A stretch of 64,000 nucleotides of DNA from Pectobacterium sp. CFBP8739 (GTDB lineage: Bacteria > Pseudomonadota > Gammaproteobacteria > Enterobacterales > Enterobacteriaceae), in contig NZ_JACDRR010000007.1 in the NCBI RefSeq assembly GCF_013449375.1, positions 306,827 to 370,826 on the forward strand. Reading direction: 5' to 3'. The notes under the pieces are model-generated. The model saw only the letters and a program-made list of their open reading frames with translations. It ran no database searches and was not told the origin of the DNA. Made by a program: the position numbers and the translations under genes. How positions within the stretch are numbered: position 1 is the stretch's first letter; each line of letters opens with the position of its first letter. Positions 18,755 through 30,914 of the stretch are shown here, piece after piece.

Positions 18755-18997
18755 GCGTTCCTATGAGTGATGATAGTGCCACGATGCGACATCGCCGTAT
18801 TTCTGTCTGTTTCTACGCCGATGTCAGCATTGTGCCGATGGCTATAAAACAGTTTTAGTGACGATGAAGAGCGTACCGTTTGCGGTGCGGCGGGTTTAGT
18901 AACGGAGTTTAAAAATTGAGGTGAAACGGACGCAGAAACGGCAGTCACCGTGCGGACGCTATGTCCTTGCTTCCCAATCAATATGAGCCGAGGTGAC

Positions 18998-20338: not shown

Positions 20339-20820
20339 GAGGTATATGCACATGAACTGTGCGTGTTCTGCCAGTTAGCGGTGCAAGACGCCGTCTTGTG
20401 AAGAGGAAATCGTGGAATAAATAGCGGAGTAACTGAGGGGGGGAAGTGGTTTCGTGCGTAGCGGGTTCTCGCTGTCGTTGTGTTGTGATGAGCGTAAATA
20501 ACGCTGAAGGAAAAACAGTCTTAGGATGAGCGGCAGGGAAGCCGCGAAAGCCGTTGCCGCGTCGGGAACGCGTCAACGGCGGTCCGTTAAGAGGCTGTTT
20601 TTTCTGAAGGTATCGCGTAGCGACGTTATTTCTCGCGAAAAAGCCGCGGGTCACGGGGCGGCGGCGACTGAGCGCCCCGTGTCGGGCGCGTGCTACGGCG
20701 TAGCATAGAAATGGCAATATTCTCGCGCACGAAATAATCATCATAATTTACATGTGGTTACCGAAATTTCAGTTCACGTCTTGGTTAATCCATCCCCCTC
20801 GGCAATATGTAAAACTGTGA
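20339..20820. other. Gene-free stretch with several strong hairpins before the nas promoter
   Basis: No gene is supported. Three inverted repeats stand out: 20550-20580 (GCCGTTG/CAACGGC with an inner CGCGT/ACGCG), 20652-20681 (CACGGGGCG/CGCCCCGTG) and 20691-20705 (TGCTA/TAGCA). They may be REP-like elements. NtrC enhancer sites for the sigma-54 promoter at 20825 are expected here, but none was certain by eye. Confidence 0.5.
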
Positions 20821-20824
20821 CATC

Positions 20825-20840
20825 TGGCACAAACCTTGCT
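20825..20840 (+). promoter_or_regulatory. Sigma-54 promoter of the nas operon
   Basis: TGGCAC-AAACC-TTGCT is an exact match to the sigma-54 -24/-12 consensus. Transcription should start near 20850, about 160 bases before the first structural gene, giving a long leader with the antiterminator and terminator. This is the expected Ntr-controlled promoter of nitrate assimilation operons. Confidence 0.85.
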
Positions 20841-20876
20841 TTAACTCATTAGCAACAACCAAACATTCATAATGCG

Positions 20877-20900
20877 TTTCGGGCCAATGGCGGTGCGGAA
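20877..20900 (+). promoter_or_regulatory. ANTAR target hairpin P1 in the nas leader
   Basis: TTTCGGGCC and GGTGCGGAA form a nine-position stem with one mismatch and two wobble pairs, closed by the hexaloop AATGGC. The loop has A at position 1 and G at position 4, the signature of ANTAR-bound RNA hairpins. Confidence 0.7.
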
Positions 20901-20910
20901 GGTGTTAATC

Positions 20911-20924
20911 GGACAACGGCGTCC
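20911..20924 (+). promoter_or_regulatory. ANTAR target hairpin P2, exclusive with the terminator
   Basis: GGAC-AACGGC-GTCC is a perfect 4-bp stem with a hexaloop that again has A1 and G4. Its loop and 3-prime arm are the 5-prime arm of the terminator at 20915, so P2 and the terminator cannot form together. This is the layout expected for NasR-mediated antitermination. Confidence 0.75.
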
Positions 20925-20973
20925 ATAAGCGTGCAGATTCTGCATGGGCTTGTGGACGCCGTTTTTGTTTTTT
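20915..20973 (+). terminator. Leader terminator of the nas operon
   Basis: AACGGCGTCCA pairs with TGGACGCCGTT around a 26-base segment that itself holds a small hairpin (TGCAG/CTGCA), followed by TTTGTTTTTT. It lies between the promoter and the first gene, so it is a regulatory terminator that NasR must overcome. Confidence 0.88.
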
Positions 20974-23207: not shown

Positions 23208-24002
23208 ATGCGTACAACACCGATTATTCAAGTGCAGCAGGTGAGCCAGCGTTTCAATACCGCCAGTGGTGAGTTTTTGGCGCTCGATCAGGTGAGTTTC
23301 GACATTCATACCGGTGAGACGATCAGCCTGATCGGCCACTCTGGCTGCGGCAAGTCCACGTTATTGAATCTGATTGCCGGTCTGACGCTACCGAGCAGCG
23401 GCGGCCTGCTGTGTGACAACCGTGAAATCGACGGCCCAGGGCCGGAGCGCGGCGTGGTCTTTCAGAACCACTCGTTGCTGCCGTGGCTGACCACCTACGA
23501 AAACGTTGCGCTGGCGGTACGTCAGGTATTTCGCGGGCAGATGAACAAGCACGAGATGCACGAATGGATTACCCACAATCTGGAGCTGGTGCACATGGGA
23601 CACGCGCTGAACAAGCGGCCGAATGAGATCTCCGGCGGGATGAAACAGCGTGTGGGGATTGCCCGCGCGCTGGCGATGAAGCCGAAAGTGCTGCTGATGG
23701 ATGAACCGTTCGGCGCGTTGGATGCGCTGACGCGTGCGCACCTTCAGGATGCGGTGATGGAAATTCAGCAACGCTTGCAAACCACGATTGTGCTGATTAC
23801 TCACGACGTAGACGAGGCGGTACTGCTGTCGGATCGCGTGCTGATGATGACGAATGGCCCGGCGGCGACGGTCGGTGAAATCATGACGGTCGAGCTGGAA
23901 CGTCCACGTTCGCGCGTCACGCTGGCTGACGATCCACGCTACCACCACTACCGTCAGCAGGTGCTGCATTTCTTATATGAAAAACAGCCTAAAGCAGCCT
24001 GA
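23208..24002 (+). CDS. nasD: Nitrate ABC transporter ATP-binding protein
   Basis: The 264-residue protein has Walker A (GHSGCGKST), Q-loop (VVFQNHSLLPWLTTYENV), signature (ISGGMKQRVGIARAL) and Walker B (VLLMDEPFGALD), the pattern of NrtD/SsuB-type ATPases. It energises nitrate import. AAGGAG lies just before the ATG at 23208. The gene starts 10 bases after nasE and is followed 16 bases later by the reductase gene. Confidence 0.93.
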   Translation: MRTTPIIQVQQVSQRFNTASGEFLALDQVSFDIHTGETISLIGHSGCGKSTLLNLIAGLTLPSSGGLLCDNREIDGPGPERGVVFQNHSLLPWLTTYENVALAVRQVFRGQMNKHEMHEWITHNLELVHMGHALNKRPNEISGGMKQRVGIARALAMKPKVLLMDEPFGALDALTRAHLQDAVMEIQQRLQTTIVLITHDVDEAVLLSDRVLMMTNGPAATVGEIMTVELERPRSRVTLADDPRYHHYRQQVLHFLYEKQPKAA

Positions 24003-24018: not shown

Positions 24019-27000
24019 ATGATGAAACCGCATCTGATTGTGATTGGTAACGGGATGGCGAGTGCGCGATTTGTCGATACGTTGCGGCAACTGGCTGCGA
24101 CGCGCTACCGCATCACCGTGATTGGTGATGAACCGCGCGCCAGCTACAACCGCATCCTGCTGTCGCCGGTATTGAGCGGCGAAAAAGCGTTTACGGATAC
24201 GCTGCTGATGCCTGCGGCTATCGATGATGATGCGGCGCTGCCGGTGAGTTATCTGTTGGGTGAGCGGGTAACCCACATCGATCGCCAGCAGCGTGAGGTG
24301 ACAACGACGCAGCGGCAACTGCATTACGATCATCTGGTGCTGGCGACCGGATCTACGCCGTTTATGCCACCGATGCCCGGTATCGATCTGCTGGGCGTAT
24401 GCGGCTTCCGCACGCTGGATGATGTCGAGCTGATGTTGACGACGATTCGCCAATCCGTGCCTGCGGTGGTGATTGGCGGTGGTTTGCTCGGGATTGAAGC
24501 GGCAGCCGCGCTGAAACTGCGCGGTGCCGATGTCACTTTATTACACCGCACCCCGATGCTGATGGAGCGTCAACTGGACGCGACGGCGAGCGGCCTGCTT
24601 TGCGACAGCCTGCGTGCCCGCGGTATTGCCTGTGAAACGGATGTGCAGGTGGTGGCGCTGCACGGTGATGAACATGGCGTCACGGCCGTTGCACTGGCGG
24701 ATGGCCGCACGATCCCCGCCGGGCTGGTGGTGGTGACGGCAGGCGTGATTCCCGCCAGCCAACTGGCACGCGAGTGCGGCTTGCCCTGTAACCGCGGTGT
24801 GCTGGTGGACGGTCAACTGCAAACTGCCGACCCGTACATCAGCGCGATCGGCGAGTGCTGTGAGCTCAATGGCGAAACGTTCGGGCTGGTTGCTCCGTGT
24901 TTCGCCCATGCCACGTTGGTGGCACAGCGCCTGGCCGGACACACACCGAAAGATTATCAGCGTGAACAGGCGGCGACGCGGCTGAAGGTCACCGGTATTG
25001 GCGTGGTCAGCGGCGGCGATATTAACGTTACATCGGATGATGAGGTGTACACCCTGTTTGATCCGCAGACGCAGCACTACCGTCGTCTGCTCGTTCGCGA
25101 CGGGCGGCTGAGCGGTGTTCTGCTGTATGGCGATACCGACGACAGCCAGCGTCTGCTGGCCACAATGGAGAGCTCTACAGAAGGCAAGATGCTTCCGCCT
25201 GCCTCGCTGCTTTTCGGCCTTTCTTCCCCTGATTCTGACCCACAGCCTGAAGCTGTAAGGATTCCTGTCATGAGCAAACCTATTTTGGTGGTCGTCGGCC
25301 ACGGTATGGTCGGCCACTATTTTCTTGAACAGCTGGTCGAGCGCGACCTGCATCAGCATTACCACATTGTCGTATTTGGTGAAGAACGCCATGAAGCCTA
25401 TGACCGCGTTCACCTCTCCGAGTATTTTTCCGGCCGCAGCGCCGCTTCTTTGTCACTGGTAAAAGACGGCTTTTTTGCCGAGAGCGGTATCGAGCTGCGC
25501 AGCGCCAGTGAGATCGTGGCTATCGACCGTGAACGTCAATGCGTGTGTGATGCGCAGGGCCGAGAAACCGCCTACGACAAGCTGGTGCTGGCGACCGGCT
25601 CTTATGCGTTTGTGCCGCCGATTCCCGGCAATACGCGCCCCGGCTGTCTGGTTTATCGCACGCTGGACGACCTGGATGCGATTGCGGCACAGGCGAAAAA
25701 GGCGAAATCCGGTGTGGTGATCGGTGGCGGCTTGCTGGGGCTGGAAGCGGCAAACGCCCTGCGTCAGTTGGGGCTGGATACCCATGTGGTGGAGTTTGCG
25801 CCGCGTCTGATGGCGGTGCAGCTCGATGACGGCGGTGCCACCATGCTGCGGCGCAAGATTGAAGCGCTGGGCGTACAGATTCATGTCAGCAAAGAAACGC
25901 GCGAGATCACCGACGGCGAGCAGGCGTTGCATCGTCTCTGCTTTGCGGACGGCAGCGTGTTGGAAACCGATCTGGTGCTGTTTTCTGCCGGGATTCGCCC
26001 GCGCGATAAGCTGGCAGACAGTGGTGATTTAGAGAAAGGACCGCGCGGCGGCATTGTGATTGATGACCATTGCCAGACGTCGGACGACGCGATTTTCGCC
26101 ATCGGCGAGTGCGCACTGTGGCAAGGCCAGATTTTCGGATTGGTGGCACCGGGCTACCAGATGGCACGCAGCGTGGCGGATACGCTGGCGCAGCGCGACA
26201 CGCCCTTTACCGGCGCGGACATGAGCACCAAGCTGAAGCTGTTGGGCGTTGATGTCGCCTCGATTGGCGATGCGCACGGGCGCACGGCGGGCAGCCAAAG
26301 CTACCAGTGGACGGACGGCCCGAACGAGATCTACAAGAAAATCGTTGTTTCCGCTGACGGCAAGCGTTTACTGGGGGCGGTACTGATTGGCGACAGCAGC
26401 GATTACAGCACGTTGCTGCAAATGATGCTCAACGATATGCCGCTGCCCGCACAGCCGGAAAGTCTGATTCTGCCCGCGCGTGCTGGCGATGCACCGAAAG
26501 GACTGGGCGTGGCGGCGTTACCCGCCAGTGCACAGATCTGTTCCTGCCATAACGTCAGCAAAAGCGATATCTCGGCGGCGGTGGCGGACGGCTGCGGTGA
26601 ACTGGGCGCGCTGAAAACCTGTACCAAAGCGGGAACGGGCTGCGGCGGCTGCGTGCCGCTGCTGAAACAGGTAATGGAGTATGAACTGACGCAACTGGGT
26701 GTCGAAGTGAAAAAGGATATTTGCGAGCACTTCGCCTATTCGCGTCAGGAGCTGTATCACCTGATTCGTGTGCATGAGATCCGCTCGTTCGACAGCCTCC
26801 TTGCGCGTTACGGCCACGGTTTAGGCTGCGAAGTCTGTAAGCCGCTGGTGGGGTCGATGCTGGCGTCCTGCTGGAATGACTATCTGCTGCAACCGCAGCA
26901 CCTGCCGTTGCAGGATACCAACGATCGTTTCTTCGCCAACATCCAAAAAGACGGTACGTATTCCGTCGTACCGCGCGTGCCGGCAGGGGAGATCACGCCG

Positions 27001-28209
27001 GAAGGGCTGATCGCGATCGGTCAGGTGGCGCAGCGCTATAGCCTGTACACCAAGATCACCGGCGGTCAGCGCGTGGACTTATTCGGCGCGCGCTTAGAGC
27101 AGCTTCCCGCGATCTGGCGCGAGCTGATCGATGCCGGGTTTGAAACTGGTCACGCCTACGGTAAATCGCTGCGTACCGTGAAATCCTGTGTGGGATCGAC
27201 CTGGTGTCGCTATGGCGTGCAGGATTCCACTGGGCTGGCGATCCAACTGGAGCACCGTTACAAGGGGCTGCGTTCGCCGCATAAGATCAAAATGGCGGTA
27301 TCGGGCTGTACCCGCGAATGTGCGGAGGCGCAGAGCAAGGACATCGGCGTGATTGCCACCGATAAAGGCTGGAACCTTTACGTGTGCGGCAACGGTGGCA
27401 TGAAACCGCGCCATGCGGATCTCTTTGCCAGCGATCTGGATACGGAAACTCTGCTACGCACCATCGATCGGGTCTTGATGTTCTATATCCGCACCGGCGA
27501 TCGTCTCCAGCGTACCAGCACCTGGATGGATAATCTGGAGGGCGGTATCGACTATCTGCGTCAGGTGATTCTGGAAGACAGCCTGAATATTGGTGAAGAA
27601 TTAGATAAAGAGATGCAGCGCGTGGTGGAGGCCTACCAGTGCGAATGGCAAACCACGCTGGAAAGCCCGGAACGTCTGGCGCTATTCCGCGGTTTCCTGA
27701 ACAGCGATAGTCCGGATGAAGCGGTGGTGATGGTACCTGAGCGTGGACAAATTCGTCCGGCGCAGGGGCATGAGAAAGCGGTCTCGCCAGAGCTGGTTGC
27801 CCTGAAGCCCGCCGCGCATGAAGCGGAGTGGGTACAGGTGGCGACGTTGGGCGATATTCCGCGTCATGCTGGCATGGCGGCGCGTCTCGGGCAGCAGCAA
27901 ATCGCGCTGTTCCACTTGCCGGGGAGCGAGCAGCAGGTGTACGCGTTGGAAAACCATGAACCGGGCAGCGGGGCGAATGTGTTGTCGCGTGGCTTGATCG
28001 GTGACGTGGCGGGCGAACCGGTGGTGATTTCTCCGTTGTACAAAAAGCGCTTCAAGCTGCGGGATGGCGTGAGCCCGGATGACAGCGCGCTATACGTGCG
28101 TGCCTGGCCGGTACGTGTGGAAGACGACGAGATTTGGGTATGCCGTCAACCGCTGGCCGTACCTGAAAGCGTCGGTCTGGCAGACACTGCTATGGCGAAA
28201 GCATCATGA
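24019..28209 (+). CDS. nasB: Fused NasC-NasB: FAD reductase plus assimilatory nitrite reductase
   Basis: One 1396-residue frame covers what are two genes in Klebsiella. Residues 1-417 are a pyridine-nucleotide/FAD oxidoreductase (VIGNGMAS, VVIGGGLLGIEAA) like NasC, which passes electrons to nitrate reductase. From Met418 a second such module begins (VVGHGMVG, VVIGGGLLGLEAA). It continues into a BFD-like [2Fe-2S] segment near 837 (CSCHNVSKSD...CGGC), the sirohaem/[4Fe-4S] cysteines near 1056 and 1096 (CVGSTWC, SGCTRECAEA), and a NirD-like C-terminal domain without Rieske ligands. NasB reduces nitrite to ammonium. At the junction an out-of-frame TAA (25256) and AAGGA precede the ATG at 25270, like a former gene boundary. 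ATGs at 24019 and 24022 are equivalent starts. Confidence 0.88.
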   Translation: MMKPHLIVIGNGMASARFVDTLRQLAATRYRITVIGDEPRASYNRILLSPVLSGEKAFTDTLLMPAAIDDDAALPVSYLLGERVTHIDRQQREVTTTQRQLHYDHLVLATGSTPFMPPMPGIDLLGVCGFRTLDDVELMLTTIRQSVPAVVIGGGLLGIEAAAALKLRGADVTLLHRTPMLMERQLDATASGLLCDSLRARGIACETDVQVVALHGDEHGVTAVALADGRTIPAGLVVVTAGVIPASQLARECGLPCNRGVLVDGQLQTADPYISAIGECCELNGETFGLVAPCFAHATLVAQRLAGHTPKDYQREQAATRLKVTGIGVVSGGDINVTSDDEVYTLFDPQTQHYRRLLVRDGRLSGVLLYGDTDDSQRLLATMESSTEGKMLPPASLLFGLSSPDSDPQPEAVRIPVMSKPILVVVGHGMVGHYFLEQLVERDLHQHYHIVVFGEERHEAYDRVHLSEYFSGRSAASLSLVKDGFFAESGIELRSASEIVAIDRERQCVCDAQGRETAYDKLVLATGSYAFVPPIPGNTRPGCLVYRTLDDLDAIAAQAKKAKSGVVIGGGLLGLEAANALRQLGLDTHVVEFAPRLMAVQLDDGGATMLRRKIEALGVQIHVSKETREITDGEQALHRLCFADGSVLETDLVLFSAGIRPRDKLADSGDLEKGPRGGIVIDDHCQTSDDAIFAIGECALWQGQIFGLVAPGYQMARSVADTLAQRDTPFTGADMSTKLKLLGVDVASIGDAHGRTAGSQSYQWTDGPNEIYKKIVVSADGKRLLGAVLIGDSSDYSTLLQMMLNDMPLPAQPESLILPARAGDAPKGLGVAALPASAQICSCHNVSKSDISAAVADGCGELGALKTCTKAGTGCGGCVPLLKQVMEYELTQLGVEVKKDICEHFAYSRQELYHLIRVHEIRSFDSLLARYGHGLGCEVCKPLVGSMLASCWNDYLLQPQHLPLQDTNDRFFANIQKDGTYSVVPRVPAGEITPEGLIAIGQVAQRYSLYTKITGGQRVDLFGARLEQLPAIWRELIDAGFETGHAYGKSLRTVKSCVGSTWCRYGVQDSTGLAIQLEHRYKGLRSPHKIKMAVSGCTRECAEAQSKDIGVIATDKGWNLYVCGNGGMKPRHADLFASDLDTETLLRTIDRVLMFYIRTGDRLQRTSTWMDNLEGGIDYLRQVILEDSLNIGEELDKEMQRVVEAYQCEWQTTLESPERLALFRGFLNSDSPDEAVVMVPERGQIRPAQGHEKAVSPELVALKPAAHEAEWVQVATLGDIPRHAGMAARLGQQQIALFHLPGSEQQVYALENHEPGSGANVLSRGLIGDVAGEPVVISPLYKKRFKLRDGVSPDDSALYVRAWPVRVEDDEIWVCRQPLAVPESVGLADTAMAKAS

Positions 28210-30914
28210 CCGCGCGTGTCTGTCGGACAACCTGCCCCTATTGTGGCGTCGGCTGTGGCGTGCTGGCAGAACACGATGGGCAAGGTGCGGTAAAGATTAG
28301 CGGGGATCCTGCCCATCCGGCGAATTTGGGTCGGCTGTGCGTCAAAGGCTCCGCGCTGGGAGAGACGCTGGATTTGAACGGCCGCCTGCTGTGGCCGCTG
28401 GTGGAAGGGCGTCGCGTGAGCTGGGATCAGGCTCTCGATACGGTAGCCGAACGGCTGCTGGCGACCATGCAGCAGCACGGCCCGCAGTCGGTAGCGTTTT
28501 ATGGTTCAGGCCAGCTGTTGACGGAGGATTACTACGTTGCCAACAAGCTGATGAAGGGTTTTATTGGCGTCGCCAATATGGATACCAATTCGCGGTTGTG
28601 CATGGCGTCTGCGGTGATCGGCTACAAGCGCGGACTGGGAGCAGACGCGGTTCCCTGTAACTATGAAGATATCGAACTGGCGGATGTGGTGGTGCTGGTC
28701 GGTTCTAACACGGCTTGGGCGCATCCGGTGGTGTATCAGCGGCTGGTGCAGGCGAAACAACAGCGACCGCAGATGCAGGTGGTGGTGATCGATCCTCGAC
28801 GTACCGCCACCTGCGACATTGCCGATCTGCATTTACCGTTGCAGCCTGGCAGCGATGCGGGACTGTTTAACGGCCTGTTGCAGTGGATTGCACAAGATCC
28901 ACGCATCGATCGCACCGAATGGGTCGAGCGTTTTTCCGGTGTAGAAGAAACATTACAGTCGGCGCAGACGTGGTCGGTGGCGCACGTGGCGGAGTTTTGT
29001 CAGTTAAATGAAGCCGATATCGAGTGTTTCTACCACCTGTTCAGCACCAGCAATAAAGTGGTCACGCTCTATTCGCAGGGTGTTAATCAATCATCCTCGG
29101 GCAGCGATAAATGTAACGCGATCATCAATGCTCACCTGCTGAGCGGCAACATCGGCGTAGCGGGTTCCGGCCCCTTTTCGATAACCGGACAGCCAAATGC
29201 GATGGGTGGGCGAGAGGTCGGCGGGCTAGCTAATCAGCTTGCTAGCCACATGGGTTTTACACCGCAGGACATCGAGCGCGTAGGGCGCTTTTGGCAGAGC
29301 GATAATGTGGCGACGCAACCCGGCCTGAATGCCGTGGAGTTGTTTCGCGCGGTTGAACGCGGCGAGATTAAAGCGGTGTGGATCATGGGTACTAATCCGG
29401 TGGTGTCGATGCCGGACGCTGACCGAGTGAAACAGGCGCTGGAACGCTGCCCGCTGGTAATCGTCTCCGAAGTGATGCGCCATACGGATACCGCAGAAAC
29501 CGCTGATATCTTACTCCCCGCGCTGGGGTGGGGGGAAAAAGACGGCACGGTAACCAATTCCGAACGCCGGTTGTCTCGCCAGCGTGCCTTTCTGTCTGCG
29601 CCGGGGGAAGCCAAAGCCGACTGGTGGATCCTGAGTCAGGTGGCGCAGCGTATGGGATTTGCCGAGGCATTTGCTTATCAGCATCCGGCGGAGATCTTTC
29701 GTGAACATGCCGCGCTGTCTGGGTTTGAGAATAACGGTAGCCGTGCGTTTGATATCAGCGGGCTGGCGACGCTCAACAATCAGCAGTGGCAGCAACTGGA
29801 GCCGATACAGTGGCCGGTGAATGCGACATACCCACACGGGCGCGCCCGACTGGGTGACGATGGCCGACTCTGGCATGCCGATGGCAAAGCGCGTCTGGTG
29901 GCGGTAACCCCGTCGCTGCCGCAAAGCCCGTGGAGCGCGGCGTATCCGCTGATACTGAACACTGGGCGTATTCGCGATCAGTGGCACACCATGACGCGTA
30001 CGGGCAAAGCGGCTCGGCTGATGCGTCATATCAGCGAACCGTACTGCGAGCTGCATCCACAGGATGCGCAGACGCATGACATTCAGGCGGGCGATTTGGT
30101 ACGCCTGTCGTCGGTGCACGGCTGGATGCTGGCGCGGGCGCGGATTGACGCTGGACAGGTGCGCGGTAGCGTGTTTGTGCCGATGCATTGGAATCAGCAG
30201 TTCAGCGCTCAGGCGCGGGCTGACAGTTTAGTGGCGCCGATTACCGATCCGTATTCCGGCCAGCCGGAAAGCAAGCACAGTCGGGTGCGTATCCAACCCT
30301 GGCATACCGCCTGGCAGGCAATGCTGTTTTTTGCTGACGAGCTACCTACCGCGCCATTAACGTTACCCGCAGAGCATGACGTTCTGCCGCCGCCCGCCAC
30401 CTACTGGAGCAAAGTGCCTCATGAGAGCGTGACGCAGTATCTGTTTGCCGACCGCGTGCCAGTAGATGATTGGCAGGCATGGCTGACCGAGCATTATGGA
30501 TTGGAAAACATGCAGTGTCAGATTGCACAGGGTAACGGCATCTTTCACCTGATTGGCTGGCGTGATGACCGCGTGGTACTGGCCTGCTATGTCAGTGCAC
30601 AGGCGCTGCGTATCGACAGCGATGCGGTGTGTCAGGCGTTTATCCATCCACCACAGCTACCGCACGAGCGGCATGCGCTGTTGGCGGGGCAGGCACCGCA
30701 GGGGCAGGCGCAGCAAGGTGCAACGATTTGCAGCTGCTATAGCGTGGGTGAAGCGATTATCGTCGGCGCGATTCGTCAAGGCTGCCACAGCGTGGCAGCG
30801 CTAGGCGGTGCGCTGAAATGTGGCACTAACTGCGGTTCCTGTATCCCCGAACTGAAGGCGTTATTGAGTCAGCATGTACCGATAACGATCAATGAACTGA
30901 AGAAAGCAGGTTGA
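28206..30914 (+). CDS. nasA: Assimilatory nitrate reductase catalytic subunit
   Basis: The 902-residue protein is a cytoplasmic molybdopterin oxidoreductase. The N-terminal [4Fe-4S] ligands are Cys10, Cys13 and Cys17 ([11 protein letters not shown]) with a later Cys in GRLCVKG. The core contains [41 protein letters not shown] and the C-terminal molybdopterin dinucleotide-binding part [21 protein letters not shown]. The last 70 residues add a BFD-like [2Fe-2S] domain ([10 protein letters not shown]...KCGTNCGSC) that receives electrons from the NasC-type module. It reduces nitrate to nitrite. Its ATG overlaps the previous stop (ATGA), so translation is coupled. No Tat signal is present. Confidence 0.95.

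Follow-up and report, generated by a model that had tools for sequence, protein, structure and literature searches.

A nitrate assimilation (nas) operon in Pectobacterium sp. CFBP8739 raises the question of whether a gene boundary visible within a single long open reading frame (ORF) is still in use. The frame occupies positions 24019-28209 of the 64,000-nucleotide (nt) stretch that we analysed (hereafter the window; contig NZ_JACDRR010000007.1, positions 306,827 to 370,826) and joins nasC to nasB. An initial annotation made from the sequence alone had described this 1396-residue fusion, the two tandem FAD/NAD(P) modules ahead of the sirohaem domain and three signals at the join, namely AAGGA (25257-25261), an in-frame ATG (25270-25272) and an out-of-frame TAA (25256-25258); coordinates, signals and domain order all proved to be as it had described. 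Comparative sequence analysis makes it probable that this is one gene with two products, NasCB and a separate NasB made from an internal start, and that the NasC module feeds the nitrate reductase NasA. The features concerned, all on the forward strand (+), are as follows.

24019-28209 (+): fused nasC-nasB ORF of 1396 residues, with its ATG at 24019, its stop at 28207-28209 and a further in-frame ATG at 23977
24019-25173 (+): NasC module, a ferredoxin-reductase-type FAD/NAD(P) reductase (residues 1-385; Pyr_redox_2 and Rubredoxin_C)
25174-25269 (+): linker (residues 386-417)
25242-25256 (+): hairpin ACAGC-CUGAA-GCUGU, a small predicted RNA stem abutting the internal Shine-Dalgarno (SD) sequence on its 5′ side (from folding and relatives)
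25256-25261 (+): putative internal SD, UAAGGA (from anti-SD energy and conservation)
25270-25272 (+): putative internal start ATG at residue 418, giving an unfused NasB of 979 residues (from comparison)
25270-27780 (+): NasB/NirB core with the second FAD/NADH module (Pfam and NirB models)
26536-26679 (+): BFD [2Fe-2S] domain of NasB (Pfam)
26944-27129 and 27160-27570 (+): sirohaem halves of NasB (Pfam)
27826-28140 (+): NirD-like Rieske_2 domain, fused at the C-terminus (domain and NirD match)
28206-30914 (+): nasA, nitrate reductase, with a C-terminal BFD [2Fe-2S] domain at 30723-30869, the presumed acceptor of NasC electrons

Pfam orders the domains of the fused protein as two tandem Pyr_redox_2/Rubredoxin_C modules, BFD, NIR_SIR_ferr, NIR_SIR and Rieske_2, while NirB models match it from residue 418 onward at 1120-1328 bits and a NirD match covers residues 1270-1374. 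The part downstream of the join has the FAD/NAD module, BFD domain and both sirohaem-reductase halves of an assimilatory NADH nitrite reductase (NasB/NirB), and the gene lies in a nas operon with parts of an ABC nitrate transporter upstream and nasA and a uroporphyrinogen methyltransferase gene downstream. A separate nirB (59 % identity) is found elsewhere in the genome. We infer the following scheme. An old gene fusion, order-wide where "Enterobacterales" denotes the GTDB family searched here (named members seen were Klebsiella, Erwinia, Pantoea, Leclercia and Phytobacter), would give two translation products from the same mRNA: initiation at 24019 would yield NasC-linker-NasB, and initiation at UAAGGA and ATG 25270 would yield NasB alone, with the hairpin just upstream helping to expose the internal site. 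NasB would reduce nitrite with NADH electrons passing along the FAD, [2Fe-2S], 4Fe-4S and sirohaem centres that it carries itself, and the tethered NasC would pass NADH electrons to its neighbour NasA, probably via the BFD [2Fe-2S] domain of the latter. The second start would supply more nitrite reductase than NasC/NasA partner.

Does the fusion belong to this strain or to its lineage? The unbroken 1396-residue frame was present in 24 of the 25 genomes of the genus, our own included, at 95-100 % identity. The sole exception, G020 (locus L116, contig C1), has frameshifts and stops at several places in nasCB and also in the separate nirB, which suggests a poor assembly. We then sampled 295 genomes of the family, taking places above about 1215 bits together with those from the genus search, and typed 105 loci. 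A script scored 91 as fused; ten carried nasB with no nasC just upstream, G020 was counted twice as broken (L032 and L116), L087 had a frameshift within NasC with the join in frame, and L115 had a truncated NasB and no NasC. These exceptions and L249, which like L087 is frameshifted elsewhere than at its in-frame join, were dropped from the analyses of the join. At L115 (3134-6292; G078, an incomplete genome) a NasR-like sequence directly adjoins a truncated NasB in what is apparently a decaying nas locus. A NasC-only search (E ≤ 1e-65) gave matches in 105 of 392 family genomes and no free-standing NasC. Five genomes (G117, G229, G302, G727 and G729) matched only through the similar N-terminus of NirB, and in six others (G185, G769, G700, G693, G038 and G131) shorter frames reflected frameshifts, contig ends or partial copies, the join being in frame in all six. 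Outside the family no fused protein was seen among the matches listed for 394 genomes of the order.

The initial annotation had attributed the fusion to a single-base change, with the TAA as an old stop, and a recent frame-fusing indel or a sequencing error in this strain would indeed explain an out-of-frame TAA directly before the SD. We regard such an event as having a negligible chance. The fused state was seen wherever NasC was found in the family, every NasC locus typed there was in frame at the join bar that of the generally broken G020, and a strain-specific fusion or base error is ruled out jointly by the genus frames, the family typing and the NasC-only search. The counter-case, in which relatives all carry two genes and the single frame is a base error, failed within the family; separate genes, in a different order, were found outside it in Caballeronia. 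The TAA is itself weak evidence for an old stop: in the window it forms part of UAAGGA, an extended SD, a TAA stands directly 5′ of the SD in only 4 of 58 representatives, and an out-of-frame stop near the internal site is only somewhat commoner (38 of 58, or 0.66) than in the average segment of the gene (0.45).

The fusion is shared with named records from Klebsiella pneumoniae, Erwinia rhapontici and Pantoea dispersa, each with one coding sequence (CDS) annotated nirB, and among the matches listed the loci of Leclercia, Phytobacter and further Pantoea were also fused. The named loci do not all add a new species, since L169 and L070 are one contig. The label "nirB: nitrite reductase large subunit NirB" was noted on fused NasCB at L162:4504-8571 (K. 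pneumoniae), L165 and L166, and under this annotation the NasC module is hidden. The NasC modules of fused loci are often only 43-61 % identical to that of the window. The NasC-NasB fusion is ordinary for this group; the interest lies in the conserved internal start and the hairpin beside it.

To what extent are the signals at the join conserved? A start codon was present there in all 128 analysed loci, as ATG in 127 and as TTG in one (L254), the latter being a start codon yet a leucine codon in the fused frame. All 91 discovery loci had an in-frame ATG. Among 29 further NasC loci held out and fetched after the idea had been noted, many from the same genera as the discovery loci, the join was in frame in 29, and the 28 analysed by script gave 27 ATG and 1 TTG. 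The anti-SD energy was -4 or lower at 87 of the 91 discovery loci, at 23 of 27 in the hold-out set and at 7 of 9 among the named loci. Across 45 representatives (< 90 % identity) the anti-SD duplex averaged -5.75 kcal/mol at the join versus -0.75 to -2.72 in segments 9-60 nt further upstream, and -4.5 was attained at the join by 75 % of the 91 loci as opposed to 20 % of 1932 other internal ATGs. At each locus we took as the start whichever in-frame ATG near the join had the best SD, a slight bias towards good SDs, although mostly only one ATG lies there; the control starts of NasC were picked by the same rule. In 52 of the 58 representatives the first base of the best SD hexamer is at -14 or -13, so that a conserved start codon and an SD at proper spacing stand together within the frame.

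The SD is also kept where the protein is not. Codon -4 is AGG in 24 of the 58 representatives, GGA in 24, GAG in 4, GCA in 3, GGG in 2 and GCG in 1; this codon varies between residues, so the RNA signal is shared by loci that differ in the amino acid encoded. Linkers among relatives range from 66 to 150 nt, and at four loci where insertions have relocated the ATG by 3-9 codons (L054, L075, L095 and L104) the SD has shifted along with it. Structure around the internal start is low, averaging -0.24 compared with -2.29 at NasC starts, -2.65 at NasA starts and -4.10 at 1243 other internal ATGs. Taken together these comparisons on a usable ribosome-binding site support the earlier suggestion that the internal site could yield unfused NasB.

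Could the signals be a by-product of the encoded residues? Synonymous recoding of the join gave a mean of -3.63 against the -5.75 observed (a gap of -2.12), with 37 of 45 loci below their null. Of fifteen other conserved Met columns, ten were put through the same null, and the largest gaps there were -1.08 (column 652) and -0.57 (column 949). Among 25 close loci (24 from the genus and one close relative) 1121 codons encode a fixed residue and 919 of them vary synonymously; when 1113 segments are ranked by this variation, the lowest 8 all fall within residues 403-422. AGG accounts for 1 of the 88 Arg codons of the window's gene, and that one is residue 414. An AlphaFold model of residues 1-814 (36 sequences) contains a single stretch with a predicted local distance difference test (pLDDT) score under 50, residues 403-418; the least predicted protein structure thus coincides with the most nucleotide constraint. 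The overall score of the model (pTM 0.51) leaves the relative placing of the two FAD modules undefined. The synonymous null and the synonymous freeze argue against the SD as a coding by-product and, together with the hairpin null described below, amount to nucleotide-level constraint beyond the protein sequence, and the internal start signal looks to be kept by selection.

It is instead conceivable that the genes fused long ago, an older version of the event that the initial annotation had envisaged, and that the former ribosome-binding site and start persist as a functionless relic. The join is indeed laid out like a gene boundary, and stand-alone NasB proteins start at a position homologous to the Met of NasB. 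We consider a fossil improbable, however, as its signals would have had to persist although NasC is so divergent, with different codons and shifted positions, and although nowhere else in the gene is synonymous change as rare within the genus as at the join. Decay should be fastest for a relic lying in a linker modelled with low confidence.

Several observations temper the case for internal initiation. The loci are related, and the hold-out loci often come from the same genera as the discovery loci, so that the counts are not independent. Many loci have only moderate SDs (-3.3 to -4.3), and within single loci the SD does not stand out, a median share of 0.32 of the synonymous recodings being at least as strong. 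An equally unstructured start region is found at 5.7 % of the 1243 other internal ATGs. Energies below the null are also seen at column 652, in 30 of 45 loci, and at column 949, in 35 of 41. At the conserved Met 609 the mean SD energy, -5.34, comes close to that of the join; it is weaker than its own synonymous null, however, and Met609 was rejected as an equal SD on this ground.

Is there more to the join than an SD and a start codon? The segment from -36 to -12 had a mean minimum free energy (MFE) of -7.84 in the 58 representatives. Shuffled sequences reached -4.17 on average, with 52 of the 58 loci folding below them, and the average over the gene was -4.37. Synonymous recodings averaged -4.73, with 47 of 58 loci below them and a tail of ≤ 0.05 in 28 of 58, as compared with 1-5 of 58 in nine control segments. 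The helix score was 14.26, but 11.29 when arms were permuted between loci, with a highest value of 12.19 in 200 permutations. Two clades of the NasB tree, of 40 and 13 loci, were tested apart, a joint RNAalifold being precluded by their differing stem registers; five representatives (L044, L045, L046, L054 and L257) belong to neither alignment. In the 40-locus clade 85.4 % of cells pair and 5 of the 6 pairs show two-sided changes, with a covariation score of 0.171 against 0.107 (0 of 500 shuffles as high) and 10 double-changed cells against 2.4 in shuffles. The 13-locus clade forms a different stem with a 6-nt loop, scoring 0.352 against 0.276 (reached by 2 of 500 shuffles) and with an RNAalifold energy of -6.81. 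The hairpin is accordingly conserved at the nucleotide level, less uniformly than the SD and start codon, and the comparison suggests that a small, partly covarying hairpin abuts the internal SD in most loci.

The hairpin has its own counter-evidence. Of the nine control segments, one likewise folds more stably than its synonymous recodings at 41 of 58 loci. Sliding the structure of the 40-locus clade by -1 or -3 columns still gives 10 and 9 double-changed cells, although pairing (21 % and 50 %) and covariation (0.028 and 0.084) then drop far below those of the unslid structure, and RNAalifold on this alignment finds almost nothing (-0.04, 3 pairs). The stem of the window itself has 5 base pairs and its 81-nt context is no stabler than shuffles (z 0.42), and four loci (L042, L057, L062 and L267) have no clear hairpin abutting the SD. 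A search of Rfam at 25200-25300 returned no match with E ≤ 1. RNA targets of ANTAR proteins of the NasR type are hexaloop hairpins with A1 and G4; we rejected this class, the 40-locus stem having a 3-nt loop and the 6-nt loops of the 13-locus clade beginning, by inspection, with C or G.

What might such a hairpin do? An SD-like sequence and a hairpin could simply slow ribosomes so that NasC folds first, with no initiation taking place, and both elements are present, at a site lying between two confidently modelled modules. A pause would have no need, however, of a start codon at near-fixed spacing, of an exchange of ATG for TTG or of a little-structured start region, nor would the SD and ATG have to relocate together, and we think it improbable. 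Alternatively, cleavage in the unstructured stretch upstream might yield a processed nasBA transcript that begins with the hairpin and is protected by it, such that nasBA would outnumber nasC mRNA and the internal start would serve nasBA. Structure directly 5′ of the hairpin is very low (mean MFE about -1.1 to -1.6), as this would favour. Conservation of the SD and start codon already suggests initiation, so that processing would be an addition to internal initiation rather than a replacement, and we view it as unlikely though compatible with the two-product reading. More speculative within the two-product reading itself, and at present rather doubtful, is that hairpin, SD and ATG form a conserved, undescribed intragenic regulatory RNA setting the ratio of NasCB to NasB, which would match nitrite to nitrate reduction and possibly sense upstream ribosome traffic or nitrogen status.

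Which enzyme would the NasC module serve? The initial annotation had proposed that a fused protein could deliver NADH electrons to both nitrate and nitrite reductase, and of this the service to nitrate reductase gains support from the pattern of co-occurrence with NasA. All 126 fused loci with room downstream encode a NasA close to that of the window, with identities of 60.7 % or more across the N-terminal portion that was aligned; the full set of NasA domains was read in the window's protein. The ten NasB loci lacking NasC are scattered over several places in the NasB tree (quick method), and their grouping as one clade was rejected (p-AU 3.2e-5; 50 of 75 rows). Their NasB proteins start at, or within a few codons of, the point of the internal start. 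Two of these loci (L108 and L110) retain a short linker-like stretch and hairpin-capable sequence before nasB and a third (L107) a hairpin; neither feature was evident before nasB in the other seven. We infer that these lineages lost NasC, as opposed to its having been gained repeatedly.

Five of the ten (L092, L097, L098, L108 and L110) carry a NasA only 35-38 % identical, in frames of 1252-1371 residues with a reductase-like C-terminus, and the two examined by domain search have flavodoxin, FAD and NAD domains and no BFD; in the other five, NasA was not found in stretches of some 4-9 kb downstream. NasC is thus kept with a NasA lacking its own reductase and absent where NasA has one or was not found, a pattern indicating that NasC is kept where NasA needs a reductase and supporting the module as the probable NADH reductase of NasA. 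Judged by sequence, the best relatives of NasC with solved structures are rubredoxin, putidaredoxin and dioxygenase ferredoxin reductases, which would fit reduction of the BFD [2Fe-2S] domain of NasA.

Further upstream, the frame at 18950 was taken as NasR, by position and relatives rather than by a family model. Just 5′ of nasF, positions 20813-20960 (+) gave a full-length match to the Rfam family P11 (RF00625) that stayed below threshold, scoring 28.5 bits where the cut-off is 70; E was 0.0051 when 12.5 kb were searched and 0.00014 when 351 nt were. This stretch terminates in a GGCGUCC...GGACGCC hairpin followed by a U-rich stretch, and it is probably the leader of the nas operon with its attenuator.

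If the two-product reading is correct, an operon described with separate nasC and nasB, and annotated NirB in Klebsiella, Pantoea and Erwinia, would in fact hold one gene for two proteins across many enterobacteria, and automatic annotation would conceal a shorter, catalytically complete enzyme. It would also provide a directly testable case in which selection maintains a ribosome-binding site, complete with hairpin, inside a gene, and the lineages without NasC, with their matching changes in NasA, offer a natural experiment for assigning electron donors. The operon plan of the window is that of the Klebsiella nasFEDCBA operon. In Klebsiella (M5al) nasC and nasB were named as two genes, whereas the K. 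pneumoniae record CP125156 has a single 1355-residue CDS. NasB from its internal ATG would have 957 residues, the length reported for Klebsiella NasB.

Among the papers listed by our literature searches no title or opening of an abstract reported the fusion or the internal start, and the available sections of PMC4724949, PMC7759655, PMC9999607 and PMC12830290 likewise do not mention the fusion. For Pectobacterium atrosepticum and Dickeya dadantii the genes nasR, nasFED, nasB and nasA are listed in the accessible part of PMC3349551, whose text contains neither "nasC" nor "fusion".

The protein of the window resembles E. coli-type NirB from residue 418 and NirD at 1270-1374, and differs in the C-terminal fusion of NirD and the extra N-terminal NasC module. 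The same modules adjoin in Caballeronia in the order nirB, nirD, a free FAD reductase (nasC) and nitrate reductase (nasA), and Acinetobacter sp. NCu2D-2 (L164:7115-8725) has a 536-residue NirD-NasC fusion annotated nirD. In both, NasC follows nirB, either free or joined to NirD, with no NasC-NasB fusion, unlike the window. A further arrangement occupies the same operon position in L277-L281, from nas operons without NasC. Here a CysJ-like diflavin reductase, with flavodoxin, FAD and NAD domains in the two proteins searched for domains, is fused to NasA and takes the place of NasC as the electron supply. The closest parallels for the proposed mode of expression, as far as the available sections of the two papers go, are Cas11b, made from cas8b by internal in-frame translation (PMC11899642), and the N-terminal proteoform pairs of Salmonella (PMC11005335), in which an internal in-frame start likewise yields the C-terminal part as a separate product. 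Those cases are experimental, whereas that of nasCB is put forward from comparison, concerns a metabolic enzyme and has a hairpin at the site.

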